Shown here: positions 11,801-33,196 of the stretch, piece after piece
Layout of the letters: each line of letters opens with the position of its first letter
How positions within the stretch are numbered: the stretch's first letter is position 1
From: Gammaproteobacteria bacterium
Lineage (GTDB): Bacteria > Pseudomonadota > Gammaproteobacteria > SZUA-152
Direction: 5' to 3'
NCBI GenBank assembly: GCA_021648485.1
Contig: JAKISS010000033.1
Span: 1-33,196 of the forward strand
DNA: 33,196 nt
Notes under the pieces: generated by a model
What the model was told of the DNA's origin: nothing
The model's database searches: none
Seen by the model: only the letters and a program-made list of their open reading frames with translations
Position numbers and translations under genes: made by a program

Positions 11801-14800
11801 ATAATGAGGAGTTAAAGGAAGCCAATAGGGTCATGGAATCGCTACTACCTTGGTATATGGTCAGGGCGAAATTGTTAGCAGGAAAACGTCTGTCTATTGA
11901 TAAATGGCATAAGAAAGCTCAGCAAATATCTTCGCAAAAATTAAGTGGGCGCTACCGGGAGTATGATCCTCTCCCTTTTGAAATTACCGATGCACGCTTT
12001 TTTAATCTGCTGTTGGCAAAAGGCAATGTGGACTCAGAGCTCAATAAGCTGATTGAAGGTATACAAAGTGGCGGCCTTAAGTTTCGTCATCCTGATAAAT
12101 TGCGCGCACTACGGATAGCTAACCGGAACAATCGATTACAGGCTATCGCCGATAGTCTTGAAGACTCGTGTTATCAAACCTTACAGATTGTTGATGAAGA
12201 AGAAGGGCCTGTGGAAAATGCCAATGGTCTTATCTTGTTGTCGCGGGCCGTACTGGCATCCAGTGAAGCCGATGCCGAAGTTTATTTTGAAAAAGCCATA
12301 GAAGTAGTTTCGCGCTTTGGTGATGAAGCCGTTGAACGATGGGAAGCTGTGGTTAGTATTGCCAAGTACTGTGCCACTGGTGGGAATCTGGGGCCAGAGC
12401 AGGCCTACCGTTTTATGCGTTGTGCTGAGTTGATTGGCAATACTGTAACAAGAGAAAAGCATTGGGACAGGGATGAGGCGATGACAACTTGCTTCCGCCT
12501 ATGCCCTACATCAGCGTTTGCAATTGCCAGCCGCTGGAATGATCGAGCTGTTGGGCGTTCAGGACGCATGTTTGCGGCTTTACTTGAAACAGCACTGAAT
12601 GACAATGCCATTTCTCCTACTTCAGCCTGGGCAGCAGCGGCTATGCCGTTTGACTATGACTTGGTGGCTTTTGCTAGCAAATGTATCGAGAAGGAAACGG
12701 ATGTAGAAAAACAGCAAATTATTTTTAATGATTTGGTGACAAACTATCGCAAACGCGGGATTACCGGTGATAAGTGGCAGTCTATCGACAAGCTGGCTAG
12801 AACACACTGCCTCCATCATGAGGCATTGAAGCAATTGGAGATGTTGATTGGCAAAGAAAAAGAGGCCGATAAATCGAGACCAAGGAGTTCGTTGCGCGAA
12901 GAAGACAATACTCACGGCAGTTGTGAAGAATTATATGGTGATATTAATTTTCTCTCTGATGATGGTTTACGCAAAGCATTGGATAGGTTTGAAGCGTTGG
13001 AAGCTCCGAGGGATGTTAAAGACTTATGGCAATATGCAGCCAGTAAAGTATCCAATACCAATGCTGTTAAATATTTATCGTTGATTGCCAATGCTGAATA
13101 TTTAGATTTTTATGAAATCCGTACAGCATTACGAACCTTTCCAGATACATTAAAGAAAAAACTGGGTGTACAGAAAGCTTGGCCTAATATTGTTAAAACT
13201 ATCGCGGAACGTTACCCCGATGACTTTATTCGCTGCTACCACCGCCATTGGGTATTAAGAGATATTGGAGCAGATGATACTACGCTTAATGCTGTCAGGG
13301 AGGGGGTGCTAAAAAGCTTGTCGGAATCCAATGGTCTGGAATCTGCCAGTACCTTTTATGGTTTTGCCGGCTCCTGCGCACAAGAATTAACGATGGAAGA
13401 AGCGGAAGCTCTGTTTGACTTTGCACTGACCCGATTTGAGCTTCATATTGAGAGTGACTATGCCGATGGCCTGTGGAGAGCTGAGCTGCACCCACCTGAG
13501 AAAATCACTGCATCGCTAACAGGCTATATCTGGGGTTGTTTAGGCTCACCTGAATCATGCGAGCGTTGGTGTGCAGCCCATGCGGTTAGGCGCCTATATC
13601 AATTAGGCTGCCAGCAGGAAATCGATGCATTGATAACATGGATGTGCAGTGGGCAAGTTGACGCGTTTATTAGTAGCAATCACCCCTTCTACATCATGCA
13701 CGCTAAACAGTATTTTCTTGTAGCGCTGGCACGCTGTGCGGCTGATACCCCTGCTTTATTGACCAAGCATAGTAAAATATTCTGCGATATTGCATTGCAA
13801 GGTGAAGCACATATTTTAATACAGCAGTATGCCGCAGCTATTGCTTTAGCTATCGCGCAGGTTACACCAACAGCCTATAAGCCCAATATTATCCACCAGT
13901 TGAAGCAAGTAGGTAAAACACCATTTCCAATAGAAATAGCCGAAGATTATTACGAAAAGCGTGATACCCCCTGGCACCAGCAAGGTAATGTCGATACATC
14001 GCTAGACTTGTCTTTTGGCCATGACTTTGACCGTTATTGGTTTGAGCCTTTAGGCGATGTCTTTAAAGTGCCTGGCAAACAGGTTGAGGAATTAGCTGCC
14101 GAAGTCGTATTAAAGGATTGGCGGCTTTCTTTTGCGGAGCGCTATATCCGCGATCCTCGACAGGAACTCTGGAATAACCGGAGAGATAGAAGTACCTGGC
14201 ATAGTCATTCAAGCTATCCGAAAACCGACGACTACAGTTTCTATCTGTCATACCACGTCATGATGGCGGTTGCTGCCAAATTATTGAAGGCCATGCCTGT
14301 TATTCATTCTTGCGATTGGCATGATGATGAATGGCAAGATTGGTTGGATCGTCATCTTTTAACCCGAAATATTGGAAGCTGGTTAGCTGACAGGCGAGAC
14401 TTTATCCCTGCTGTGCGCAGGCAATGGCTAAACGATAAGACGGACAATGACTGGCGCTGGCAGATCTGGCCCAAAGACTTTCTCGATGTATTACTCTTTG
14501 AACAACAGGGCCAAACGTGGTTAAACGTTGCCGGTTCCTGGAACGAGTATCGCGATGGTCATAATGAATCCATATACATTTCAAGCAGACTGGTGCCAAG
14601 CGGGGCCTCCGCGTCATTACAGCGTGCTGTTATCTACCACCAAAGTGATGTGCCGGACAGTAAAAGTCTTGCACATTTTGATAGTCGGGATTACGACGAT
14701 CGTGCCGATCATTCATTCAAGTTGAAAGGTTGGTATACACAAGGCGATTGCCATGACAGGGTTGACGAGTTTGACCCTTATGCAGGCTCGCTGGATTACC

Positions 14801-15207
14801 CGCCCATCACGCTTAATCGGGAGATTGTATCAGAGTTCAAGCTAACACCTGATAACGAAAACCGCTATTGGTACGATACTGACACTGATAAAGTTATGCT
14901 ATGCAGTCAGTTATGGAGTGAGGATAAACCGCAGCGGGAAGATAACGACTATTGCAGCAAGGGTAAACGCTTGCAGGCCTCATTAACGTTTTTAAAGACC
15001 TTATTAAGCACGCTGGATATGGATTTAGCTATCCAGGTAGATATTCGTCGACAGTTCACCGATAGATATAGGGATAAAGATAATGATGTTGGATATACCC
15101 CCCCATATAGAAAAATTTATATCCTCTCAAAAGATGGACGACTTAGAGACACAAGAACGTCTTTTGTACTTAGGGAAAAAGTTAGAAAAAAATCTCGAAA
15201 AAAATAA
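8857..15207 (+). CDS. Avs-like anti-phage STAND NTPase with N-terminal Cap4/DUF4297 nuclease
   Basis: A 2116-residue multidomain protein. The N-terminus (about 18-230) matches the Cap4/DUF4297 PD-(D/E)xK nuclease found on defence STANDs: AGDTFHYRWAARRCLRLL, then YVIDTAEY with Asp67 and YFQLKHST with Gln85 and Lys87 as the catalytic Q-x-K. A P-loop NTPase follows, with Walker A AGTGKS at 289-294 and Walker B LIILFDAVDN with Asp391 and Asp394. The remaining 1500 or so residues have no obvious catalytic motif and look like helical repeats (TPR-like) ending in a Trp/Asp-rich region, the expected sensor. In characterised Avs2/Avs3 proteins this architecture recognises phage terminase, and the nuclease then degrades DNA. 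A small ORF overlaps the 3' end, as in the type 3 layout. The subtype and target are inferred, not shown. There are no frameshifts across 6.3 kb. Confidence 0.8.
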   Translation: MTKKKKSQPNKKAVSPDLLIYSRAGDTFHYRWAARRCLRLLDFNSNLDQITIEGSKEPKLGGEYVIDTAEYSADDINGQSVEYFQLKHSTTQLDKNFTLSGLKETVEGFASRFRHLDKSPHNFSSIKFTIVTNRPISPQFKKSVMKLASGESGGTNFDKTIKAYTKLKGKKLTAFCRCLQLIDGEGDYDAQKHELHRELARLTCEASDTKPLLSLVELVRTRIEPKSTRKDINKDDVLEQFEQTSEKDLFPAPPLFEQLSVPIAREQHDDLYQSIIDLKSSFLIFKAIAGTGKSITCNQLIDRFGDGSLAVAYDCFGNGGYRKLSEHRHRVCDAYVQVANQLAQQGLCEPMIPVKRDQDDKLTQAFLLRLSQAIEKLRESNKDALLIILFDAVDNAEMAAREFGDRCFASHLLRETLPEGCRVVYLSRPERVHLFNPPDSILQVEIEPFSDKESLQYLQTKYPDACLKDAVEFRRLTDGNPRVQANTLALGKQFIGEVLAYLGAGGKTVDDLIEEQLRSAVAKVKALYPQSFEQHVEDICTGLASLPPFVPLEVLAAVSSTDVATVKSFIADFGRPLWLIDNYVQFRDEPTETWFTNTFAATPEQIKTYISRLKPLADDFSYVAEALPSLLLKSGQYNELIALALSEDKLPTDNPVDARNIQVYRLQFAFKAALKDKHYADACKIALRAGEEVAGSDRQLGILSENIDLATRFLSEQRVMELAHQRNMCGAWNGSEALYSSAMLSSIPECEGEARSYLRSGWHWLKRYFEERDKEENALGNDRLEDSDILTMLFCHYQLDGEESAVEFIRRWRSDELIYRVMLEFAERLTDASEFAVLERMALYGKDCPSLVIAINHELLKVGRTPDKKCLARILSKIIGPGKWLDKPNDAFDQYRISASAYLSFFEACIINKLPAANIRRALNHYIDEPRIYTIKDDWHSEYRTNFFRSISIRACIKNNYDLSVADITPKCWQKEEQSHRDNEELKEANRVMESLLPWYMVRAKLLAGKRLSIDKWHKKAQQISSQKLSGRYREYDPLPFEITDARFFNLLLAKGNVDSELNKLIEGIQSGGLKFRHPDKLRALRIANRNNRLQAIADSLEDSCYQTLQIVDEEEGPVENANGLILLSRAVLASSEADAEVYFEKAIEVVSRFGDEAVERWEAVVSIAKYCATGGNLGPEQAYRFMRCAELIGNTVTREKHWDRDEAMTTCFRLCPTSAFAIASRWNDRAVGRSGRMFAALLETALNDNAISPTSAWAAAAMPFDYDLVAFASKCIEKETDVEKQQIIFNDLVTNYRKRGITGDKWQSIDKLARTHCLHHEALKQLEMLIGKEKEADKSRPRSSLREEDNTHGSCEELYGDINFLSDDGLRKALDRFEALEAPRDVKDLWQYAASKVSNTNAVKYLSLIANAEYLDFYEIRTALRTFPDTLKKKLGVQKAWPNIVKTIAERYPDDFIRCYHRHWVLRDIGADDTTLNAVREGVLKSLSESNGLESASTFYGFAGSCAQELTMEEAEALFDFALTRFELHIESDYADGLWRAELHPPEKITASLTGYIWGCLGSPESCERWCAAHAVRRLYQLGCQQEIDALITWMCSGQVDAFISSNHPFYIMHAKQYFLVALARCAADTPALLTKHSKIFCDIALQGEAHILIQQYAAAIALAIAQVTPTAYKPNIIHQLKQVGKTPFPIEIAEDYYEKRDTPWHQQGNVDTSLDLSFGHDFDRYWFEPLGDVFKVPGKQVEELAAEVVLKDWRLSFAERYIRDPRQELWNNRRDRSTWHSHSSYPKTDDYSFYLSYHVMMAVAAKLLKAMPVIHSCDWHDDEWQDWLDRHLLTRNIGSWLADRRDFIPAVRRQWLNDKTDNDWRWQIWPKDFLDVLLFEQQGQTWLNVAGSWNEYRDGHNESIYISSRLVPSGASASLQRAVIYHQSDVPDSKSLAHFDSRDYDDRADHSFKLKGWYTQGDCHDRVDEFDPYAGSLDYPPITLNREIVSEFKLTPDNENRYWYDTDTDKVMLCSQLWSEDKPQREDNDYCSKGKRLQASLTFLKTLLSTLDMDLAIQVDIRRQFTDRYRDKDNDVGYTPPYRKIYILSKDGRLRDTRTSFVLREKVRKKSRKK

Positions 15208-16117: not shown

Positions 16118-17818
16118 TCAAACCTCAAATTGTGCAATATGGGATTGCAGGTTACAGGCTAGTCGCGAGAGTTCTTCGCTGGAGGCGGTGATCTGGTTCG
16201 AGGCTGCCGCGTTCTGTTCAGCAACGTCGCTGATGGCAGTGATGTTGCGATTAATTTCTTCTGCAACTGCGCTTTGTTCTTCCGCCGCGCTGGCGATCTG
16301 CGTGTTCATGTCGCTGATGTAGCTGATGGCCTGAGTAATGGTTTCCAGCGAGGTACCGGCTTTGGCGGCCTGTTTTACGCTGGCTTCGGTCTGGCTGCGG
16401 CCATCCTCCATGGCATGAACTGCATTTTTTGAACTGTCCTGCAAACGTACGATAACCCCCTCGATTTCTTTGGTGGATTCTTGAGTGCGTTTGGCGAGAG
16501 TGCGCACTTCGTCAGCGACTACGGCAAAACCACGTCCCTGTTCTCCGGCGCGGGCAGCTTCGATAGCGGCATTCAACGCGAGCAAGTTGGTTTGTTCTGC
16601 GATAGATTTGATCACGTCCAATACTGTACTAATGTCACTGCTGTCCTCGCCCACTTGATGAATTACCCGGGTAGCGTCTTCCACAGCAGTGGACAGGGAG
16701 CTGATGGAATCAATGGTATTGCTGACTTCCTGTTGACCCAGATGAGCTTCCGCGCTGGCATGTGTAGCGGAATTGGCTGTGTCTTGTGCGTTTCTGGCAA
16801 CTTCCTGCACGGTGGCGCTCATTTCGTTAATGGCGGTTGCTGCCTGTTGTACCTCGGACTGCTGTTCATGCAATGTGCGGTTGGTATCTTCACTAACTGC
16901 TGCCAGTTCTTCAGCCGAAGCCGCCAGCTCTGTGGATGCCTGATTCATTTCATTGATTATTTGATGCAACTTGTTGCGCATAATACTCAAGGCGTTTAAC
17001 AGTTGTGCTATTTCATCAGAACCTTCAACGTGTACTTCTTTAGTCAGATTACCCGCAGCTACGGATTGGGCCACACGGATTGCATCACGAAGACCGCGGG
17101 TAATACTGCTGATTACCAGAAATGCAATGATGGTTCCCAGCAGCCCGGAAACCATACCAATAGCACTCAGAGTGGAAAAAGCACTTTTTTCATGCTGTTC
17201 CGCGTTCAGGGCAGCCGTTTCAGTAAATTGCCCGATTTTTATTTGTAGCGCTTCAAGCTCATGACTGATGGCTTTTTCTTCCGTTTCAATATTCTCCGCA
17301 GCTTCAAAAGCGTCGTGTAACCTGCCTTGTTTGATTAATCCAATAGTATGTTCAGCATGCTTGACATAATCTTCATGTTCTTTTTTGACTCGCGTTAAAA
17401 TGTCAACAACCTGTTTGAATTCCTGTTGTTCATTGTCATTGTGGGCAAATGTTATGGCTTTTTGGGCAATTTGTTCACCGCTGCTGAATTCTTCACTTAT
17501 CTGTTGGGAAAAATCAGTGAATGTTTCGACGGATTCACGGAAATGAGCTGCGGCTTTGGTCTCAGTATTCATTCTTTCTCCGAAGCGCAGGGCACGCTCG
17601 AAGTTGATGGCTTGTTTCAATTGATGGATGGTGATTTGTGATATCACTTGTGTCAGTGGGATGTTTTCCTCGGAAATCGCGGCTAATTCTTCACCGATTT
17701 GATTCATGCTATTGAGTGCATAGATGATGCTAACAGCCAATGCGCCTATGAATACTATTGATATGCTGTAAATCTTGGCTTTGATGGTGTAGCTATTGAG
17801 GTGAAGTGGACCGCTCAT
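16118..17818 (-). CDS. Methyl-accepting chemotaxis protein (four-helix-bundle-like sensor)
   Basis: A membrane chemoreceptor that signals through CheW/CheA. I choose the start at 17818 ([17 protein letters not shown]), giving 566 residues. An upstream ATG at 17920 would add 34 polar residues before the first membrane helix. Transmembrane helix 1 is about 14-36 ([16 protein letters not shown]). A periplasmic helical sensor of about 180 residues with many Glu/Gln follows, then transmembrane helix 2 (about 216-240), a HAMP linker and the cytoplasmic coiled coil. The signalling tip [16 protein letters not shown] is canonical. Methylation-type Glu/Gln pairs flank it. No CheR-docking pentapeptide is present at the end ([10 protein letters not shown]). 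The ligand cannot be told from sequence. Confidence 0.93.
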
Positions 17819-18148
17819 TAGTTTGGAATCTTTTATATGTTTATGGAAAGTGTGCGTAAGGTTCCTTTGGTTGTGAGCCAAATATCTTCTTATGGCACAC
17901 CGTAATCCGTCTTTCCTCACTGTCGGCAGAAACAGCGAAAAACTTTAGCAGACGGTTGATTTGGCAAGATAAAGTTATTGATGAGGTTATTAATAATGGT
18001 GTTTTGCTTTTTTAAGAAAAACTCAAACTTATTAGCTCGGTGTTACACACTGCCAGTGCAGTATTGCTGTTCTATTTTTTGAGGCAACTATTTTTAGTGA
18101 TGTAAAAAATTCGCAACGCGGCCAGAATTTAGGATAATGGGTTATATT
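17819..18148. other. Spacer between the two chemoreceptor genes
   Basis: About 330 A+T-rich bases with no credible gene. It presumably holds the promoter of the left receptor and the end of the right receptor's transcript. I see a short palindrome CACTG-CC-AGTG near 18047 but no classic terminator. Confidence 0.45.
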
Positions 18149-20479
18149 TCAGGTTTTGAACTGCGTCACCATTTGTTGCAGTTCAGCAGCCAGATTAGCC
18201 AGATCTTCACTGGCCCGGGCAGTCTGCTCGGCACCCTGCGCTGATTCGTCACTCACCTGGCTGATGATTACCACGTTCTGGTTGATTTCTTCGGCTACGG
18301 CACTTTGTTCTTCGGCAGCACTGGCAATCTGGGTATTCATATCGTTGATGCGCGCCACTTCATCGGCGATGGCAGTGAGGGCATCTCCTGCTTTTGCCGT
18401 TTGCTCAACGCCGATCTGTGTCTGCTCACGACTTTCATCCATGAGTTCTACAGCCTCTTTGGAGCCGGCTTGCAGGGATTCAATCATTGCCTGAATTTCC
18501 TGGGTTGATTCCTGAGTGCGTCCGGCCAGCGTACGTACTTCGTCGGCGACCACGGCAAAGCCCCGACCTTGTTCACCGGCGCGGGCGGCTTCAATGGCTG
18601 CATTCAAAGCAAGTAAATTGGTTTGTTCGGCAATGCCACGAATCACATCCAGCACGGTGCCGATGCGGTCACTGTCGGCTTCTACTCGCTGAATGGCTTC
18701 AGCAGAGCGACTAATGGCCTGGGCAAGGCTGTTAATGGTGTTGACGGCATTATTAACCACCTCGCGTCCTGTAGATGATTCATCATTGGCTGTAGAGGCA
18801 GCTCCCGCCGCTTCCATGGCGTGGCGGGCGACTTCTTGTACTGTGGCCGCCATCTCGTTCATGGCTGTGGCCAACTGGTCGGTTTGTGATTGTTGTTTTT
18901 GAATACCGTGACTGGTTTGCAGGGTGACTGCGGACATCTCTTCCGCAGCTGCCGCCAGCTGTGCTGTTGATCCCGTAACCTGTTGCACGATGTTCTGGAA
19001 TTTGTCCAGCATGCTGTTGAGGCTGGCGGCCATATCGCCGCTTTCATCTTTGCTGTGGATATCAATACGGCGGGTCAAGTCGGATTGTTGTTCGATTATG
19101 CCCATGGCGTCTTTCAGCAGGATCAGTGGTTTTGTCAATCTGTCGGCAAAAAACCAGGCTGCAACCACCGCAATGCTGATCATCAGCAGGATGCTCCAGA
19201 GGGCGGCCCACAAAATGTTACTTTCCATTGTATGTTCGGCGGCAAAGGCTTCTGCCGCGTCAATTTCCGCCAGTATGGCCCACTCCAGCCCCAATATGTT
19301 AATGGGCGCATAAGCGGACAATACGTCTACATTGCGATAATCCTTGGTGAGTTTAAAGCCGGTTTTTCCGGACAATGCAGATTCTACGGCAAAAGTTTTT
19401 ACCGGAAGCAGGCCGATAGTCGTTTCTTTGCTGTTGATGACACCGTGAATACGTTCCTCAATCTTCATATTTTTGATGGTTTCCATGAAGACTGTTTTGT
19501 CCTCAATGAGAAATCGACTTTGGCTGCGCATGAGGCTGTCGCTTCCGACCAGGTAGGTTTTGCCGGATGCGCCCAGGCCAACTTCATGCCAGCGTTCAGT
19601 GTTGGTCATTACCTGATTGATGTTGTTGATCGGCATTTGGAAGATAAGAATGCCTTCCATTTTGCCGCTGTCCCCGAAGATGGGCGATGAAATAAATGAA
19701 GCCGGGTCGTCGTAGGACGGTGTATAGGGAGCAAAATCGTCGAGGTAAACAAAATCTGCTTTGCTGGCTTTTTGAGCTGCTTTGAAAGCACGGCCAATGC
19801 CGGTATCGGCATAGGGGCCGCTGGTTAAAGAAGTGGCAAAGTCCAGCTCTTTATAAACGGAATACACGATTTTACCGGTATCTGCATCTACCAGAAAAAT
19901 GTCGTAATAGCCGAATTTATTGAGGAAATCGCGAATATGGGGATGGTAGCGTGCGTGGAGTTGGTCGTAATGGGAGCCGTTACCGGTTTTGACCAATACA
20001 TCTTTTGAACCCAGAGGGTTGTTATTGGCTTTGATGTAAGTGTATTGCAGAGCCACGGCATTATCATCAATGTTATCAGACATGGCCTGAGTGTTAATGC
20101 TTTCCCCGTGATTCTGGCTTTTGTATTTGTTGGCAAAGTCATTGGTGTAGTAGTGGGTGAGCTGGTTGCGATATTGACTGATGTTGCCACTCAGGGCTTC
20201 TTCCCGATAATGGTAGAAGGCTGGCTTGAAGTTCTGCATGGCATCGATGATCATCTCATCGTTGGAGAAGGTTTTGATTTGGTTGGAAATAATATTGAAG
20301 TAGTTTTCGATCTGGGTTTTTTTGATTTCCCGGAGCGATACCAATTGGTTATCAATCTGTTTTTCCAGAGCATTTTTTGCTGTACCCGTAGCGACTGACT
20401 CAATAAATAAACTGGCAAGGATGACCGGTATTGCAGTGAGCAGGGATGAGCCGAGAATTAATTTATTTTTGATGTTCAT
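18149..20479 (-). CDS. Methyl-accepting chemotaxis protein with large periplasmic sensor
   Basis: 776 residues. Transmembrane helix 1 covers about 6-30 ([19 protein letters not shown]). A periplasmic region of some 390 residues looks like a double-Cache sensor: [20 protein letters not shown], then [12 protein letters not shown] and [13 protein letters not shown]. Transmembrane helix 2 is near 425-447 ([14 protein letters not shown]), followed by HAMP and a signalling domain with [16 protein letters not shown] near 615-630. It ends [11 protein letters not shown], without a CheR pentapeptide. The signalling half is similar to that of the receptor on its left, whereas the sensors differ, suggesting different ligands. 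Its ATG lies 2 bp from the end of a palindromic repeat element that therefore forms its leader. Confidence 0.94.
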
Positions 20480-25824: not shown

Positions 25825-26394
25825 TTAAAAAGGGGTATTTTGTGTATACACTCCAAAACCCCAGTATTTTCTCACAGATTTTTGTGGCCCTGACCAACCC
25901 AGGCGTAACAACTGTTTGTGTATAAACCAGATGATAGCGCCATGACCAACAAATAAAACTGACTCATGTTCTTTCGATAGCTTTACCAGTTGGTCAGTGC
26001 ATTCCCTAGTGCGGCACTTTATGTCTTTGTACGATTCAGTGTTTGATGTGTAACCCACCCGTTGAAGTATGCGAAACAGTGCTGACCATGAAGTTCCTGT
26101 TAATTCAGGGTATTTCCAGTTTGCATATGGCATTTCACATTCGCGAAACAGAGGGCTGATTATATCCGGGGTTTCAATATTTAACGCCCATGCCGACTCG
26201 ATTGAACGCGGTAAGGTGCTACACACAATAAATTCGCATTTTCCGGCTCTTTCGTAAGCCTCAGCTGTTGGTTGATGCTCAGCATCAATTCCTGATTGAT
26301 CATAACTTGCCACCCGCTTGCCAAAATTGGACGCACTCATTTTTCCTGAAAAATCTATTTTTGGTTTTCCGTGTCGTATCAGTACTATTTCCAC
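25825..26394 (-). CDS. Histidine phosphatase family protein
   Basis: 189 residues. The N-terminal catalytic motif IRHGKP has the phosphoryl-accepting His8 in RHG, and the second catalytic histidine lies in FVGHGAIIW near residue 150. STLPRSIESAWAL supplies the conserved Arg. The length and simplicity fit the small SixA/phosphoglycerate-mutase-like branch. The substrate cannot be predicted. It is convergent with rpoS and lies upstream of no clear partner. The right side is IS-ridden, so this is the last intact gene before the insertion cluster. Confidence 0.85.
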   Translation of the reverse strand: MEIVLIRHGKPKIDFSGKMSASNFGKRVASYDQSGIDAEHQPTAEAYERAGKCEFIVCSTLPRSIESAWALNIETPDIISPLFRECEMPYANWKYPELTGTSWSALFRILQRVGYTSNTESYKDIKCRTRECTDQLVKLSKEHESVLFVGHGAIIWFIHKQLLRLGWSGPQKSVRKYWGFGVYTQNTPF

Positions 26395-26460
26395 TTATGC
26401 TCCTTCAGTAATATTAAGGGTGTTGCCCAACACTCTTCAATTAAGCTATCTACGGGAGTA

Positions 26461-26686
26461 TTACCCCATATATGCATGATCAGATGCCAAATAGATTAAT
26501 TCTTCCTTAGAGCTTTCTCTTGATAAAATTGCGTTACGGTGAGGGAAGCGCCCATGCTTTTTAATAATATTTCGGTGATATTTTGCACATTCAACATTTC
26601 CTCCGAGGTTTACTTTACTATATAACTTTACTGACATATTTTGATCGTCTATGTTTTCATTATGCATAAACGGCAATTCCTTTTTT
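26461..26686 (-). pseudogene. DUF924-family protein, C-terminal stub cut by an IS element
   Basis: The frame reads LPFMHNENIDDQ, then KYHRNIIKKHGRFPHRNAIL and SRESSKEELIYLA. This is the characteristic C-terminus of DUF924 proteins (FGRFPHRN followed by a GR-S-EE segment). Full members are about 180 residues; only about 75 remain. The homology stops at 26686/26687, exactly where the left inverted repeat of the ISL3-like element begins. I found no N-terminal part on the far side of the element, so it was lost by deletion. Confidence 0.75.
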
Positions 26687-26802
26687 GGGTCTTCAGAAAA
26701 ACTTGTGGGTGAAATATTGAGTATTTAGGCAGGCTTGTGTCGCATTGAGTTTCATATCATGATGTTAGTTACCAGACCAATATCAAGAAACAGGGAAACC
26801 CA

Positions 26803-26946
26803 ATGCGAATAAGAACCCTGCTGAATCAATGCCAAAAATACAAGTCATTTTCATTCATCAAAGAATACATTGAAGAAATCAAAGGGGAGTCGGCGCTGAT
26901 CGTTGAAATTGATGCCCGAAAAAATGGCAAACCGATCTGTAGCTGA
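26803..26946 (+). pseudogene. ISL3-type transposase, N-terminal fragment
   Basis: 47 codons read MRIRTLLNQCQKYKSFSFIK and then ALIVEIDARKNGKPICS. This fits the start of ISL3-family transposases, where PRKNxKPxCSxC leads into the zinc finger. The frame hits a stop at 26944-26946 directly after PICS, where the zinc finger's second cysteine should follow. That point is the junction with the inner element. Confidence 0.65.
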
Positions 26947-28135
26947 TCAGCGGATTGATTGTCTGTCATAGCATAAGCTTTTCTGTCCAGTAGTTCAAAG
27001 TTGATGCCGTCCTTTAAATAACGTTTGACATCGGGTATTGATTTGAGCTTATCGTAAGGTGTTATCATGTTTTTGTAGTGATATTTCTTTCGATGCTTGC
27101 CGTTTTTATCTGTGATTATTTCTGGAAAGAAGCAAGGCCGATGGTAATTGATATGGGGGTTGAGATAACGCTGATTAACGTCATTTACCAGAGTGGCCCA
27201 CTTCCGTGGGATATAATGATAATCCAGTATTTTTCTGACCACGGAGGCATTCTTACTTTCTGCTAAGGCATTGTCATTGGAATGACGCGGTCTGGATTTT
27301 GTAAACTCGATGAGCAGCTTTTTGAGTAGTTTGGCTACATTGCGATTAATGTATTCACTGCCATTATCAGAATGGAAACTGATGATCTTGAAGGGAAAGA
27401 AATCCATCATCGCTTCCAGTATCGGAATCATGAATTGCTCGGAAATTTTCTCGACAGAACACACAGCTTCAAACTGAGTCACTTCATCAACGGCATTGAT
27501 ATGGTATACCCCTTTAACCTTGCCCCGATCGCCCTGATGCACCGTATCAATGCGTATATAACCCGGCTGCCTGCGGCAGGTTTCCGGCGTTCGCCGATAC
27601 TGGCGCTTTTAGGGCGCGTTTTCTCAAAATGTGTTCGCGTTCTTGAATAGGTTTTCGACTTTCTCAGGTTATAAAGATGACTGATGGAAATGGTGCTTAA
27701 GCGTTCATATTGTTTATCGTCAAATAGCCGATAAGCTCGCTCGCAAAGTTTCTTTATCGCCTGCCCACAGGGAGTGTCATGGCGTTCATCCATCTGGGCG
27801 ATTAAGTGAATATCCTTGTCCGTGTATTTTCCCTGAAACCCGTTGGATGTGACGTGACGATGCTTGATGTAGCCGGTCGTACGATACTGCTTGATCAGGC
27901 GAGTAATTTGTTGCCTGGAATAACCCGTGACCTTGATCAGGTAACGGATGACAATGCCTTTTCCGATTTTGCTTTGTACGGGATACTGGAATCGTACCAG
28001 TTCATGTTGTATCCATCGATAACGCTCTTCTTTAGCGGTACTGATTTTGAATATTACCGCTTGAGTTCCATCCAGGAATTGCGATAGCTGTTCGACCGTG
28101 GTGAGTTCTTCGAGTTTCATAATCGTCTTCATCAT
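26944..28135 (-). pseudogene. rve-type DDE transposase, frameshifted and 3'-truncated
   Basis: The first frame starts at 28135 (MMKTIMKLEELTTVEQLSQF), with a helix-turn-helix region (VTGYSRQQITRLIKQY), and runs to RRKPAAG. Near 27570 the homology moves to another frame, giving QPGYIRIDTVHQGDRGKVKG. Here lies the first catalytic Asp (RIDT); the second Asp is in SDNGSEY and the Glu in NALAESKN, so the DDE triad is complete across the shift. The shift sits in a short G/C-rich inverted sequence (CTGCCTGCGGCAGG). A point frameshift is more likely than programmed frameshifting, but both remain possible. After YAMTDNQSADQL the frame runs into ISL3 DNA. Confidence 0.75.
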
Positions 28136-28233
28136 GGGTTGATGATGAACGATTTTTAACCCAGATTGGTGATTTCAGGCTCATTCCATGTTGGAAACAA
28201 GCCGTTTCTTCAGACTCATTCCATATTGGACAA
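26944..28233 (-). mobile_element. Second IS (rve/DDE type) inside the ISL3-like element
   Basis: Bounded by the truncated ISL3 reading frames. At its right end two 21-bp direct repeats differing at two positions (28175-28195 and 28210-28230, each with CTCATTCCAT or a near copy) are spaced 35 bp apart, as in IS ends with tandem transposase-binding sites. No matching copy occurs at the left end, so that end was probably deleted together with the middle of the ISL3-like gene. The family is not certain (rve integrase-core group). Confidence 0.6.
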
Positions 28234-28391
28234 GGCTGCATTCAGCCGGTACGGTTGAGGGTCTGAATCGCATTGTTAATTTGGTCACCAGAAAAGCCTT
28301 TGGTTTTCGGGTGCATGAAACGCTTAAAATAGCGCTATTTCACACGATGGGAAAGCTTCCTGAGCCAAAATCAACCCACAGATTCTTCTGA
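28234..28391 (+). pseudogene. ISL3-type transposase, C-terminal fragment
   Basis: The frame LHSAGTVEGLNRIVNLVTRK and AFGFRVHETLKIALFH, ending LPEPKSTHRFF, is the typical end of ISL3 transposases. The E of VEGLN is the last catalytic acidic residue of the DDE domain. The stop codon lies inside the right inverted repeat, a common arrangement. Residues upstream of LHSAG in this frame are read from the inner element. Confidence 0.75.
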
Positions 28392-28489
28392 AGACCCTTA
28401 TTTTTATTGATCTGGACTTTTCTACGAACGAGTCTGATCACTTTTAATCGAATAAGTTGCCCGCAAACTTAGCCTGATATGGAGAAAAA

Positions 28490-31400
28490 ATGCCTTCAAA
28501 TGATAAGGATATTGCAGTTGCATACAAACCACTCGCCATAAAGTTAAATAATTTCAAATCCAGCAGCGGTCCGGAGGATGTCGAAGATGACAACGATAGC
28601 GGTCTGTTCATTGGCCGCAAGCGAATCATTAACAAGCTCGTTATGCTGCTGGAAGGAGCAAAAAAAAAGCGAGGCAGCTTTCTTGTCGCAGGTTATCGGG
28701 GTGCAGGAAAAACAAGCGTTGTAAATCGGGCTATTTATGAACACTCACGTCCGAAATTCAAATTTGCTCCCTGGCCAAAGAAAATATTATTAAAGCTGTA
28801 TTCAATCAAATGGTCGGCGCTGGGTTCAAAGTTTAGAGAGATAGCTGACCAAGGGCGTATATTAATTCCCTTTGCAAGACCAAGAAAACCTATTATCGTC
28901 AGGTTGAATCTTGGCAATAGAGATCGACTGACTCCAGATCATATTTTTTATTCGATCGCAAATATTTTACGAGATGAATTGTCCTCTCAGGTGCGAGATT
29001 CAGTAAGACGAATTGGTTATCTTTTGCTGTCATTGCTGATGATATTTTCTGCCTACTCAATTATTCACTATGTCACACCCATTATTAACCATATGTTCAC
29101 TGGTGGAAGTAAAATTATATGGCCAGTTATGTTTAATGCTGAAAATATTTGGAATTTCTCAAGCGGCATATTTATATCGGTTGCCTTACTCCTGTTCCTA
29201 ATATTTAGAAGCAATAACCTAAAAAAACTGGATCAACTTTTGCTCCGAATGGACTGTGAAATTACAGAAGTTCATAACATTTCCGGAAAAACAAGTTATT
29301 TCAATGCGGGATTAAGTCGAAAAATAAAATCTCGCCCTTTGAGCTGTCGTGAGATAGAGCACCAGATTTCAGGTTTGATCAACAATTTCAAAAGCTCATG
29401 GGTCAATAACCAGTATGAAGTCATTTTTATATTTGATGAGATTGATAAACTGTCTGAAAAAGATGAAAACTCTAGTTTTAATCGAGAGCAGAAACTTATT
29501 GTCGACAATCTTCTTGGCTCCCTGAAAAGCTTTATTACTACTACTCATGCTACATTTTTTTTTATTGCAGGAAGAGAAACCCTGGATAATTATTACTCTG
29601 AAAGAGGCAGTGCAAACTCACTGTATGAGAGTTTGTTTGACCATGTAATAGAGGTCCCCAGCTTTTTGACCGGAAAACGTATTAACTCAAGCGACAGGCC
29701 GCCGATGACAAGGTGCATTGAGCAGTATCTATGTGTTCGATTAGGATATAAAAATAAAGAAAAAAACCAGCCTTTCAAAACGCTTAATGAGTATTACGAA
29801 AACTTAACAAATAACGGTAACTATTCAAATAAGGATATAAGATCAACGATATTGGTGTTGCGAAACTTTGTTAATTATCTTGCGTTTCATTCATGGGGAA
29901 ATCCAAAGCGGCTTTCGGCAATAGTTGAAAGTTTTGTGATGCCTGAGGCGGAATTATCTGTAAAAATCAGAGAAAAAATAAGTTCTGATCCAAATACAGA
30001 AAATCACAATAATGCCCCTGTCTATTTTTGTTTTACGTTTGAAGAGCAGCGAAGCTTTGCCCTCACCTCCACTATTTTTACTATATTCCAACATCAACTA
30101 AGTCGTGAGGTTTCACGTATCGGTGATAAATTGACTGTCACCGCACTTTCTTCATTGCAGTTTATATTAAAGCTTCATCAACATGGCTTTACCCGTGAAT
30201 CGTTACACCGGATGTCAGAGGCTTTCAATATATATCGAGCACCTGAACTGAATGTGATTGTTGATGATTTATTGCGCCAGGTATTCAAGCCCTATATTCG
30301 ACGTATTCGTAACGGTACTTACAGGTATCGATTTAACAGCAGTTTTGAGCAAGAAATTCGTTACATATCGTATGTTAGTGACCTCGAATCAGCATCCTAT
30401 CATTTCTCGCTTGACGCGATGAATCCAGTCAAAGATCACTTAAAATTTGCATTTCTCGATGACAATGAAAAAAAGTCACCTCATACTTATATGGTGAAAG
30501 CACGAACGCACGTATCACTGGGAGATATGAACTTAATAGAGCAATCATTCAATCTCTCTTCAGCGCACTACTCCAACGCCATTGGAATATTAAGTAGCCA
30601 AATACAAGAAGTTGCCAAAATTAAAAAATATGATGAAGAGACCGTAGTTCTTTATCTGGAAGCGATGTTGAAGTATGGTGATTTAGAAGAGTACAGGCAA
30701 AATTATGGCAATGCAGCCGCCATATATTCTCAAGCAAACGTATTCATCAAAGAACTGATAGAAAACAAAAAATCAGTGCATGACCCTTTGTTAGAGTCAG
30801 GCGACTCGAAATGGGAAGTTTATCGACAAACTTATTGGGCAGAACTTTTTCTATCACTGAAACGCAGCCCTCCAACCAATATTGCAATACATGAAAAATC
30901 CAGTCTGAACAAAATATTATTCATTGAAAAAGGCGCAAGATATTATTATCGATATGCCAATCTTTGTTTTTATTTAATCACTTGCCAGAGCAATGATAAA
31001 ATATCGGATGAAATTGATTTGGCAGCAGAAAATTATGCAAAAACAATCTATTTTTCTGTAAAAAAATTTGGGGATAATATAACTATTCCAAATGAACGTA
31101 GAGATTATCTTGCTTGCTCTGCCCTTGTTGGTCTCGTGGAAACCAGCCTGATAAAAAAAGCGACAGACCAGGTAAAAAAACCCCAATATAGCAAAGAAGA
31201 TCCAGTCCAAAATGGAATGTATGGCTCGATACACCGCTATGATTCTATGTGCAGCATTTTAAAAGAAGGCTATTTTCATGTGGCACAACAACAACCTATT
31301 TGCCAGTTAATTAGTAGCTACACAAATAATGCTGAAAGCAGTCCAATAGAACTCATGAAAATTGCTGCTGAAAATTTTAAAAACAACAGTTTATACATAA

Positions 31401-32608
31401 GCGCTGTGATTGTTTATTTTAAAATTATTAGTTACACCATTATCTCGCTGGATTTCAAGAATAGTAAAGAACGAATAAAAATTGCTTCAGCCGATACGTT
31501 TGAGGATTATTTCAAAGACATTGAAATTTTTGCCAAAAAAGCAATGGAATGTATAGATCTTGACCGTCAACTTTGCTCTTCACAAGGGACTAAAACCCTG
31601 GCAGTATATGATTACAACAATGCAGTAGACAGTCCGCTACTCACAGGGCTTTTTGAGTTGTTGAATCAAAAAGAGTACAGCCCAGATCAAGAATATCCGA
31701 CAAATGAAGAGGTGTTTTGGCAGAGTTCGATTTGGGCAAAAAAACTGGCAGCAATATTATATTGGGTTGAATATGTTCGCTCTAAATATGATGGTGATAA
31801 ACATCCATCTAAGTTCTTTCCAATTCCTATGCTTACCAATGAAGGTACAAATAATAAATATATATTTGAGCCTTCTAAAATGATGACCCTCTCGATTCGT
31901 TCAAGTATTTTGATGCGCTGGGTTTTTGCTAGATCACTGATAAACAACGTTGTAAGTAGTAAAGGTACACCTATATGCAAAGACGCTTACCGTGCATCAA
32001 GAAACCTCTATTACCTAATGCTTGATATAAACCTGATATCGAGAAAAAATCTTGATTTGGTATTTCCAACACTACATCAAGTATATTACTCTCAATGGAA
32101 ATTACTCCGCCATTTGATCAGGCAACGGATTGAAACACTGTCGGCAGAGAAGGAGCTGAGTAAAGCCTTGAGGTCAGACAAAGAATATAAAGAAAAATAT
32201 ACCCCGCCACCTTTTTGTGAACCTAAATCCTTTCGTGAAATTGCTGCTTACATCCAAAATAAATTCATGAAAATGGATGATGAATTTTGTGGCGATGAAA
32301 GAATTTCGGCATCACATTTTGATTACGATTTCATATATCTCAAGTTTCAGACCCATTTGCAAAGCTCATTCAATATGCTTGACCAAACTAGTCGTACCCG
32401 AACTAGCATACTTCAACAAAAATACTTCGCCCATGATGATCATAGTGATCCTGAATTCCGCATGGACTGGACGTTGGAAATGATGATCTCTCCTATGGCT
32501 GGAATTTTTCAAAAAGACGCCATTGAAAAAAATAAAAAAATGCAACAAGAATTCGATGACCTTCTAAAAAAATCAGGCCGCAGCATTGCAAATAAAGAAA
32601 GCATATGA
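28490..32608 (+). CDS. Large membrane-anchored P-loop NTPase (KAP/STAND-like), unknown role
   Basis: 1372 residues with a good ribosome site (GGAG, 5 nt before ATG). Walker A GYRGAGKT is at 68-75 and Walker B VIFIFDEIDKL has Asp316 and Glu317. Between them lie two hydrophobic helices, about 178-200 (YLLLSLLMIFSAYSIIHYV) and 221-243 (GIFISVALLLFLIF). Membrane segments inserted in the NTPase core are the hallmark of KAP-family NTPases. FFFIAGRE and a HSWGNPKRL segment follow, resembling sensor/winged-helix parts of AAA/STAND proteins. The remaining 700 or so residues are helical and TPR-like. I do not recognise a named family. The DNA is markedly A+T-rich compared with the chromosome blocks and lies in an IS cluster, so acquisition is likely. 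The 3' end is probably frameshifted (next entry). Confidence 0.85.
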   Translation: MPSNDKDIAVAYKPLAIKLNNFKSSSGPEDVEDDNDSGLFIGRKRIINKLVMLLEGAKKKRGSFLVAGYRGAGKTSVVNRAIYEHSRPKFKFAPWPKKILLKLYSIKWSALGSKFREIADQGRILIPFARPRKPIIVRLNLGNRDRLTPDHIFYSIANILRDELSSQVRDSVRRIGYLLLSLLMIFSAYSIIHYVTPIINHMFTGGSKIIWPVMFNAENIWNFSSGIFISVALLLFLIFRSNNLKKLDQLLLRMDCEITEVHNISGKTSYFNAGLSRKIKSRPLSCREIEHQISGLINNFKSSWVNNQYEVIFIFDEIDKLSEKDENSSFNREQKLIVDNLLGSLKSFITTTHATFFFIAGRETLDNYYSERGSANSLYESLFDHVIEVPSFLTGKRINSSDRPPMTRCIEQYLCVRLGYKNKEKNQPFKTLNEYYENLTNNGNYSNKDIRSTILVLRNFVNYLAFHSWGNPKRLSAIVESFVMPEAELSVKIREKISSDPNTENHNNAPVYFCFTFEEQRSFALTSTIFTIFQHQLSREVSRIGDKLTVTALSSLQFILKLHQHGFTRESLHRMSEAFNIYRAPELNVIVDDLLRQVFKPYIRRIRNGTYRYRFNSSFEQEIRYISYVSDLESASYHFSLDAMNPVKDHLKFAFLDDNEKKSPHTYMVKARTHVSLGDMNLIEQSFNLSSAHYSNAIGILSSQIQEVAKIKKYDEETVVLYLEAMLKYGDLEEYRQNYGNAAAIYSQANVFIKELIENKKSVHDPLLESGDSKWEVYRQTYWAELFLSLKRSPPTNIAIHEKSSLNKILFIEKGARYYYRYANLCFYLITCQSNDKISDEIDLAAENYAKTIYFSVKKFGDNITIPNERRDYLACSALVGLVETSLIKKATDQVKKPQYSKEDPVQNGMYGSIHRYDSMCSILKEGYFHVAQQQPICQLISSYTNNAESSPIELMKIAAENFKNNSLYISAVIVYFKIISYTIISLDFKNSKERIKIASADTFEDYFKDIEIFAKKAMECIDLDRQLCSSQGTKTLAVYDYNNAVDSPLLTGLFELLNQKEYSPDQEYPTNEEVFWQSSIWAKKLAAILYWVEYVRSKYDGDKHPSKFFPIPMLTNEGTNNKYIFEPSKMMTLSIRSSILMRWVFARSLINNVVSSKGTPICKDAYRASRNLYYLMLDINLISRKNLDLVFPTLHQVYYSQWKLLRHLIRQRIETLSAEKELSKALRSDKEYKEKYTPPPFCEPKSFREIAAYIQNKFMKMDDEFCGDERISASHFDYDFIYLKFQTHLQSSFNMLDQTSRTRTSILQQKYFAHDDHSDPEFRMDWTLEMMISPMAGIFQKDAIEKNKKMQQEFDDLLKKSGRSIANKESI

Positions 32609-32702
32609 CGATGTAGTAGAATCTAAAAAAACAAAAACTATTTCGGACATTGAAAAAACAATTAAAGAGCAAGCCAAAAGCCAGATATATATCAAAGCAC
32701 CT
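32566..32702 (+). pseudogene. Out-of-frame continuation of the NTPase gene
   Basis: After a run of seven A (32566-32572), the plus-one frame reads QAAALQIKKAYDDVVESKKT, then KTISDIEKTIKEQAKSQIYI. This is Lys/Glu-rich and helical like the preceding in-frame sequence, whereas the annotated frame ends after only ten more residues. A run of six A would join the frames as LLKNQAAALQ. The frame then enters the IS256-type element near 32703 and stops at 32724-32726, so the native C-terminus is lost. Confidence 0.55.
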
Positions 32703-33196
32703 GAGCCTGTAAATAATTCTGTGTAACTGCCCAGATTAAAACTGTTCCGGCATTCTGTCCGGAAACTCAATCATAAATCGATTTAAGGCATTTTTCCAAT
32801 GGTGAATGGGCATGGTCCATTTTTTAGAGGCCGCCTGAATCGCCAGGTAGATGACTTTCGTGGCCGATTGATCTGTGGGGAAAATTTTTCGGTTCTTGAT
32901 CGCCTTTCGGATTACGCTGTTGAGTGATTCGATAGCGTTGGTGGTGTAGATCACTTTACGGATGTCATCTGGGTATTCAAATAGTGTGATCAGGTTGGGC
33001 CAGTGTTTGCGCCAAGATTGGCTGATGGTGGGAAACTTCTCATCCCAGCGTTGCGCAAAGGCATCCCGTTCTCGTTCGGCTTCTTCGACCGTCAATGATT
33101 GATAAATCTTTTTCAAATCAGCTGCGACGGCCTTGCGCTCTTTCCAGGAAACAAACCGCAGCGAGTTGCGCACCATATGCACGATACACAGTTGGA
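32703..33196 (-). mobile_element. IS256-family element, cut by the window edge
   Basis: The left boundary is placed near 32703. There the complement of GAGCCTGTAAATAATTCTGT reads outward from the transposase stop with a TTACACAGAATTATT core, which resembles the terminal repeats common in IS256-family elements. The other end is outside the window. The insertion point lies in the tail of the upstream NTPase gene. Confidence 0.65.
32736..33196 (-). CDS. IS256-family transposase, C-terminal part (partial)
   Basis: The minus-strand frame is open to the window edge. It contains the IS256 signatures QLCIVHMVRNSLRFVSWKER, then WPNLITLFEYPDDIRKVIYT followed by TNAIESLNSVIRKAIKNRKI; the Glu of the AIESLN motif is the last catalytic residue. 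It ends FMIEFPDRMPEQF. The N-terminal half lies beyond the window. The visible part shows no frameshift, so the element may be active. Confidence 0.92.
   Translation of the reverse strand, partial: QLCIVHMVRNSLRFVSWKERKAVAADLKKIYQSLTVEEAERERDAFAQRWDEKFPTISQSWRKHWPNLITLFEYPDDIRKVIYTTNAIESLNSVIRKAIKNRKIFPTDQSATKVIYLAIQAASKKWTMPIHHWKNALNRFMIEFPDRMPEQF

Follow-up and report, generated by a model that had tools for sequence, protein, structure and literature searches.

Can a giant NTPase with predicted membrane helices inside its P-loop domain, encoded between the remnants of mobile elements, be a defense system consisting of a single protein? This question is raised by a gene located at positions 28490-32608 (+ strand) of contig JAKISS010000033.1 (assembly GCA_021648485.1) from a Gammaproteobacteria bacterium of the lineage SZUA-152; the whole stretch of 33,196 nucleotides that was analyzed is hereinafter denoted the window. 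The product, a protein of 1372 amino acids, is described here as a membrane-inserted STAND-like AAA+ NTPase. Given the motifs and the structural models discussed below, it is highly probable that this protein combines an NTPase core, a predicted winged helix and a helical TPR-like tail, with hydrophobic helices placed between the two Walker motifs. With regard to the function, the explanation that we favor, tentatively and with somewhat less than even confidence, is that of a single-protein, membrane-tethered STAND-like AAA+ defense sensor.

The gene is an intact ATG frame with recognizable relatives and is preceded by a Shine-Dalgarno-like GGAG just 5' of the start codon (28481-28484, + strand). 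Given that the longest open frame across 200 shuffles of positions 26001-33196 was 185 codons, and that the protein aligns lengthwise with four relatives at 30-46% identity, the frame of 1372 codons is not a chance occurrence. The start is as given in the initial annotation of this DNA, whereas the end proposed there (32726) has to be moved to the stop codon at 32608, 118 bases earlier.

Domain architecture and predicted fold

From the N-terminus to the C-terminus, the protein consists of a GR[E/K] motif, Walker A, the membrane insert, Walker B, a sensor arginine, a GNP motif, the predicted winged helix and the all-helical tail, all encoded on the + strand. A GR[E/K] motif N-terminal to Walker A is typical of STAND and ORC proteins; here it is represented by LFIGRKR at residues 39-45, within the longer motif LFIGRKRIINK (residues 39-49, positions 28604-28636), where G42 and R43 are conserved in more than 90% of the 41 rows of the family alignment. 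Walker A is GYRGAGKT at residues 68-75 (28691-28714) and Walker B is VIFIFDEIDK at residues 311-320 (29420-29449), with D316, E317, D319 and K320 invariant in the 41 rows; both had been recognized in the initial annotation, at 68-75 and 311-319, respectively. These motifs are followed by a sensor-1-like strand with its arginine, TFFFIAGRE (residues 355-363, 29552-29578; R362 present in 39/41 and 27/29 rows), and by HSWGNPKRL (residues 467-475, 29888-29914; G470 present in all 41 rows). Altogether, the positions that are invariant or conserved in more than 90% of the 41 rows are G42-R43, G68, R70, G71, G73, K74, D316-E317-D319-K320, G361-R362-E363, G470 and P472-K473. The motif set of STAND NTPases comprises Walker A, Walker B, an arginine after the sensor-1 strand and a G-x-P motif, and all four are conserved in the present family, as GYRGAGKT, FIFDEIDK, FFIAGRE and GNPKRL, except that Walker B contains DE instead of DD.

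Downstream of the core, a winged helix is predicted at approximately residues 545-616 (30122-30337), an assignment made by eye from the helices and the two-strand wing of the model. The tail (approximately residues 621-1372, 30350-32605) contains, near the C-terminus, the motif HDDHSDPEFRM (residues 1315-1325, 32432-32464), in which D1320 is present in all 29 rows of a broad alignment.

The protein was modeled with AlphaFold2 in two overlapping parts, the quality of both models being fair to good. The model of residues 1-700 (predicted local distance difference test, pLDDT, 78.7; predicted template modeling score, pTM, 0.77) displays an AAA+-like core with two long span-bearing helices after the second strand, followed by helices and the two-strand wing. 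The model of residues 600-1372 (pLDDT 79.8, pTM 0.86) is nearly all helical after two short strands at its start, in agreement with the long helical C-terminal half described earlier. Among the best Foldseek matches of residues 1-700 are Drosophila ORC/Cdc6 (7jgr, E-value 2.8e-4), RdrA of the RADAR system (8hr8, E-value 9.4e-4) and CED-4 (2a5y, E-value 1.9e-3), with other ORC subunits also near; two matches reach E≤0.001, Apaf-1 is found among the fold matches, and TnsC structures appear lower. For the tail, no structure matches at E≤0.001, and the weak resemblances are to helical folds, including TPR superhelices of the LGN type; a minority of the family members (at most 4 of 29 for any one model) is matched by TPR models. 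A search of the PDB by sequence profile yielded weak matches only, among them RdrA (8hr7, E-value 0.0054) and AFG2/VCP-like ATPases (best E-value 6.5e-4, over approximately 40-60 profile positions around Walker B). Neither half yielded a transporter or chaperone fold. The models thus support a STAND-like AAA+ fold, the nearest structures being ORC/Cdc6, RdrA and CED-4. Of the KAP/STAND-like label proposed initially, the STAND-like part is retained on the basis of fold and motifs, although no curated profile passes its cut-off, whereas the KAP part finds no match at E≤1.

The predicted membrane insert

Two membrane helices had been predicted before Walker B, and the hydrophobicity scan indeed detects two spans there, at residues 175-193 (29012-29068, + strand; helix 149-204 of the model) and 220-238 (29147-29203, + strand; helix 211-239 of the model). 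A third, weaker hydrophobic window (residues 967-985, 1.73) is part of the helical tail and is unlikely to span the membrane.

The insert is a feature of the family rather than of this one protein. We scanned 58 rows (the window protein and 57 family members) in windows of 19 residues; both Walker motifs are readable in 54 rows, and the region between them is unreadable in L034, L054 and L055. At least one hydrophobic window is located between Walker A and Walker B in 52 of the 54 readable rows, with 199 such windows in 19,710 inter-Walker residues compared to 16 in 64,363 residues elsewhere. The insert is variable, with 0 to 11 windows per row and a distance between Walker A and Walker B that ranges from 147 to 806 residues. 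The positive-inside rule predicts flanks rich in lysine and arginine (K/R) for a membrane hairpin, and as expected under this rule, 15 of 17 two-span rows have a greater K/R density in the outer flanks than in the loop (one row shows the reverse).

Distribution and phylogeny of the family

The family was assembled starting from an alignment of five members and scanning genome contigs with two peptide patterns, which produced 67 loci; sequences scoring above 100 bits against the family's own profile were retained and four duplicate loci were dropped, leaving 57 members besides the window protein. Truncated sequences are present among these, and a single gene is represented by two pieces, L021 and L022. 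In another locus, L080 (9908-14871), the family gene is split into two frames of 522 and 1115 codons.

The members come mainly from Pseudomonadota (including Nitrosomonas), Bacteroidota and Nitrospirota. A search of the class produced matches at E≤0.001 in 7 of 369 genomes, four of them with long matches, including the genome that contains the window; a true family member was found in 1 of the 12 genomes of the genus and in 2 of the 24 genomes of the order search, where the other matches were short, with E-values of 2e-4 or worse. Among Bacteroidia, places scoring above 100 bits were detected in 3 of 395 genomes, including the one on which the search was centered, and two were already known. 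The family is therefore rare, patchy and accessory. It is also uncharacterized: no published description was found in a search that reached few subscription papers and had no accession to query by, and nothing was found in the literature on PDC-M16 or on QatA with KAP. The genome containing the window encodes a second, distant member of 1514 amino acids (G000:C96, denoted L018; 8692-13236), which belongs to a different subclade; pilT-like and FHA-like genes, named by eye, are located near it.

The phylogenetic tree, built by a quick method from 65 rows with support estimated by the Shimodaira-Hasegawa-like approximate likelihood ratio test (SH-aLRT), has 14 open forks and four very long branches. 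A clade of 53 of the 65 rows, hereinafter the membrane clade, is supported by an SH-aLRT value of 100; on the other side are L072 and a sister set (L023, L081 and L083-L091) from Acidobacteriota, Verrucomicrobiota, Chloroflexota, Myxococcota and others. The sister set is homologous to the family over 534 profile columns of the NTPase half (probability 100) and shares with it the GYRGVGKTS and FDELDK motifs but, unlike the family, lacks a hydrophobic window between the Walker motifs in 10 of its 11 rows; L072 lacks it as well. The remaining row, L085 (404-6271; Myxococcota, on a long branch), differs from the ten others in having three hydrophobic windows in its inter-Walker region. Two scenarios of the origin of the insert are possible: (i) two gains, one at the base of the membrane clade and another in L085, or (ii) an older origin followed by several losses. 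One further placement that attracts attention is that of L033, binned as Candidatus Omnitrophota but falling among Pseudomonadota rows, which may reflect either transfer or a binning error.

Relationships with known NTPases

KAP NTPases reportedly carry membrane segments inserted in the P-loop domain, which is also the position of the hydrophobic windows in the 52 members noted above. The sequence comparisons are less favorable to a common origin. The window protein has no match to KAP (PF07693) at E≤1; of 29 members, 5 are matched by the KAP_NTPase profile at E≤0.01 (best E-value 1.2e-5), and the paralog in the same genome passes the Pfam KAP cut-off (22.7 vs 20) with its pieces summed and its neighbors in frame. 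A profile comparison with six KAP proteins produced a match of 88 columns around Walker B at 91% probability, and the best match to PifA covers 14 residues of Walker A (E-value 0.62). The Walker B motifs differ only slightly, the six KAP proteins having D[DE]xDR (DE in two of them) and the family DExDK; K320 is found in 41 of 41 rows, and its KAP counterpart is R in 6 of 6. When the scan that detects the insert is applied to the six KAP proteins and to PifA, the inter-Walker region contains no hydrophobic window, so the shared insert design is unseen in the KAP sequences at hand. Membership in KAP was accordingly rejected, given the lack of a profile match at E≤1, the 88 columns compared to the 534 columns shared with the sister set, and the 14-residue match to PifA; as judged from these profiles, the kinship to KAP is weak only.

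The design nevertheless has a precedent in a defense protein. Tmn, an NTPase of the KAP family, is described as having two unusual transmembrane domains and as able to inhibit phages T2, P1, phiVi and phiX by a mechanism that is called unexplored (PMC11846954). The likeness to the present family lies in the described membrane-NTPase design; the KAP NTPases, PifA included, belong to a different NTPase subfamily by the profile (KAP) and pairwise (PifA) tests. Tmn can thus be considered, by analogy, the closest functional counterpart found in print and a precedent, in another NTPase family, for the membrane-NTPase design. None of the PADLOC matches in the family searches was named Tmn, the presence of a Tmn model in that PADLOC version being unconfirmed.

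The best structural analogy for the insert is provided by RdrA, because its crown insertion is likewise located between Walker A and Walker B. As described in PMC9994260, this insertion lies between Walker A (81-83) and Walker B (221-222), replaces helix alpha-2 and forms the crown of the heptamer. RdrA is the second-best fold match (8hr8), and the two share a Cdc6-like AAA+ fold with a large insertion between the Walker motifs and a helical tail. The differences are that RdrA has an adjacent partner gene, encoding the deaminase RdrB, whereas no recurrent partner is found here, and that the insert of the present family is hydrophobic. Membership in RdrA was rejected because the window protein matches no PADLOC model at E≤1, the four RdrA-like proteins match the family profile over 30 columns only (between KAP and RdrA, the match extends over 233 columns), and a recurrent partner is lacking. 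Relatives of the window protein display weak PADLOC matches to PDC-M16A, PDC-M16B and mad8 (E-values 7e-4 to 6e-3).

With STAND NTPases such as CED-4/Apaf-1 and Avs, the family shares the order of motifs and, as far as the models suggest, the winged helix and the helical repeat tail; TPRs joined to a STAND NTPase have been proposed to sense phages (PMC9122126). It differs from them in the hydrophobic helices inside the P-loop domain, the DE.DK form of Walker B, the position of Walker A (from residue 68), which leaves no space for an effector domain at the N-terminus, and the score below the Pfam nSTAND1 cut-off. Membership in Avs was rejected given that the window protein matches no Avs profile of PADLOC, while another protein of the same window (8857-15207) matches Avs3a at 1528 bits.

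Gene neighborhoods

The gene is mostly solitary and has no conserved partner. Among 811 neighbor genes in 70 loci, no neighbor family occurs in more than 7 loci, and many loci sit between differing other genes. The two neighbor families that reach 7 of the 70 loci, both named by eye, are response-regulator-like and FHA-like; the latter are found in L018, L023, L035, L057, L078, L089 and L091, that is, also in members of the sister set. Genes on the same strand lie no more than 60 nucleotides away upstream in 4 and downstream in 6 of 56 loci, 46 of which have both flanks. Shared short frames within 500 nucleotides of the gene are limited, among the 20 pairs listed, to three pairs of loci, namely the near relatives L049/L051 and L040/L042, and L020/L071, which have a common upstream gene. 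In L020 and L071, which are distant relatives, the family gene is located directly downstream of a sucB-lpd-like pair (named by eye). Given these data, a conserved partner gene was rejected, so that the single-protein organization proposed for the window holds family-wide, and conserved housekeeping operons, which would have spoken against a conflict role, were looked for and not found.

Functional predictions

A role of the family in biological conflicts, i.e. defense, appears to us evenly balanced, and membrane damage as the output is more doubtful. Under the favored explanation, the hairpin would fix the protein to the inner membrane, with the NTPase and the tail in the cytoplasm; the tail would bind a foreign or stress-made protein, and nucleotide-dependent opening would then drive the assembly of a ring. 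The membrane inserts, located approximately where RdrA has its crown, could come together around the axis of the ring and perturb or gate the membrane, so that growth would stop or the cell would die before the invader, most likely a phage, multiplies. A more far-reaching version, which we consider unlikely, is that the family is a new class of innate immune receptors in which the STAND/AAA+ ring itself is the membrane device, a crown turned membrane domain of two to approximately 11 helices. Ligand-driven assembly would in this case build or gate a pore directly, without a separate effector, and the mostly spanless sister set, the hairpin form and the polytopic form would represent a modular series.

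To assess the genomic association with defense genes, 30 loci on long contigs were taken and their nearest genes were compared to matched stretches of the same contigs. PADLOC identifies at least 6 defense genes among the 119 neighbors, in 4 of the 30 loci, vs 1-2 of 119 in the controls (31 regions). The defense neighbors are type I restriction genes (L041, L050), type I and other methylases (L070) and AbiEi/AbiEii (L066); the control stretches contain PD-Lambda-2_B once and GlgB once, the latter probably a housekeeping gene. The neighbors matched 47 PADLOC families (25 of which are listed), 45 of them matched by the 10 proteins looked at individually. The traced mad3 and mad8 matches come from one UvrA-like protein (L049, by eye) and were not counted; 2 of 3 mad3, 1 of 2 mad8 and 1 of 2 mad2 matches, plus two families, were not traced to a protein. 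Some defense neighbors may be uncounted because the patterns by which most proteins were chosen covered methylase, DEAH and nucleotidyltransferase motifs only. In addition, a strong N6_Mtase match is located within 10 kb of the family gene in 4 of 54 genomes (G376, G381, G389 and G391, at 0.6-9.5 kb) compared to 0.39 expected (p = 5e-4, post hoc). In Bacteroidia, this association could not be replicated given too few members (3 of 395 genomes above 100 bits). The proposal of a conflict system is plausible, with restriction-type methylases nearby in some genomes, a post hoc observation, and an enrichment of defense neighbors that is not significant.

Several observations weigh against the explanation that we favor. 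The neighbor test does not reach significance (Fisher test, p = 0.12-0.28 when genes are counted and 0.20-0.42 when loci are counted), the p-value for methylases is optimistic because that test was chosen after restriction genes had been seen nearby, and the clustering with restriction genes may be shown by any accessory gene. Housekeeping genes, named by eye, flank many loci, and no copy of the family was found in collections of plasmids, phages or viral contigs. On the structural side, the Foldseek TM-scores for residues 1-700 are low, approximately 0.2-0.28 by query, and no curated STAND profile exceeds its cut-off for the window protein (nSTAND1, 21.7 bits with a cut-off of 27.1; AAA_16, 28.7 with a cut-off of 32.6). 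The close relative L020 (9754-13530), deep within the membrane clade, has lost the insert and contains no membrane span, which implies that at least one lineage can do without the insert. Finally, all steps past the anatomy, that is, oligomerization, membrane localization and the ligand, are inferences.

The same observations leave room for a membrane-tethered STAND-like signaling or stress protein without any role in conflict, for instance one that senses envelope stress and relays it through the tail. Such a function, which we regard as somewhat unlikely, is compatible with the mostly solitary loci beside differing genes, the non-significant neighbor test and the absence from plasmids, phages and viral contigs, and the FHA-like genes near 7 of 70 loci, sister set included, hint at signaling. 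An accessory conflict gene is, however, a better fit to the highly sporadic distribution (1 of 12 genomes in the genus) and the lack of a recurrent partner, to the low guanine and cytosine (GC) content and flanking insertion sequence (IS) remnants of the gene in the window (see below), and to the coexistence of two members from separate subclades in one genome.

Common descent with the KAP NTPases, to which PifA and Tmn belong and of which the family would be a divergent branch, would account for the membrane-inserted design at once and is in line with the KAP_NTPase matches of five members, the paralog that passes the cut-off, the 88-column match and the similar Walker B; it appears improbable given that the window protein itself is unmatched, that the similarity to PifA spans 14 residues, that KAP proteins and PifA have no hydrophobic inter-Walker window in our scan, and that by far the nearest relatives are the mostly spanless sister set. 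Quite improbable is also a membrane-bound AAA+ remodeling or transport machine of the chaperone or translocase type: 12 of 29 members match AAA (PF00004) in the vicinity of Walker B, and AFG2/VCP-like ATPases give the weak profile matches mentioned above, but these are confined to the Walker B region, the reason for which a transporter or chaperone was rejected, while the best folds are those of ORC/Cdc6, RdrA and CED-4 and no partner gene recurs. The IS remnants immediately on both sides of the gene in the window, together with a TniB match in 1 of 29 members and TnsC among the lower Foldseek matches, bring to mind a gene akin to TniB/TnsC that is associated with a transposon or IS as cargo or helper. 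That the family belongs there is highly improbable, given that no transposase cluster is prominent among the recurrent neighbors of the 70 loci (by eye), that a membrane insert would have no clear use in a transposition ATPase, and that the tail is far longer than in TniB/TnsC proteins.

If the family indeed functions in defense, it would be a one-gene, membrane-acting sensor outside the families of the PADLOC version searched, and one that is mostly solitary, i.e. located where island-based searches miss systems. The variable insert in a conserved AAA+ core, together with the mostly spanless sister set, poses a testable question, namely how a signaling ATPase acquires a membrane output.

Genomic context in the window

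The gene has a GC content of 37.0% compared to 48.0% in the upstream part of the window, in agreement with the A+T-rich composition noted initially. On the 5' side, Pfam matches barely above the cut-off identify an integrase core (rve, 26829-27542) and a fragment of the end of an ISL3 transposase (28188-28388); on the 3' side, an IS256/Mutator transposase (32739-33194) scores far above the cut-off, with the contig stopping inside it. The gene is therefore located between mobile-element remnants, and the IS elements reported on both sides are confirmed as such, weakly for rve and ISL3 and strongly for IS256/Mutator. Scans for promoters and terminators yielded only chance-level numbers.

Also encoded in the window is a full-length Avs3a-like STAND protein of 2116 amino acids (8857-15207, + strand; PADLOC 1528 bits, profile positions 5-2088 of 2090), 13,283 bp upstream of the gene; the proposal of a conflict system in the initial annotation mentions neither this protein nor Tmn. 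The two do not form one island because surE, pcm, an nlpD-like gene and rpoS intervene over these 13.3 kb. Also between Avs3a and surE, two adjacent genes on the - strand (16118-17920 and 18149-20479) encode methyl-accepting chemotaxis proteins.

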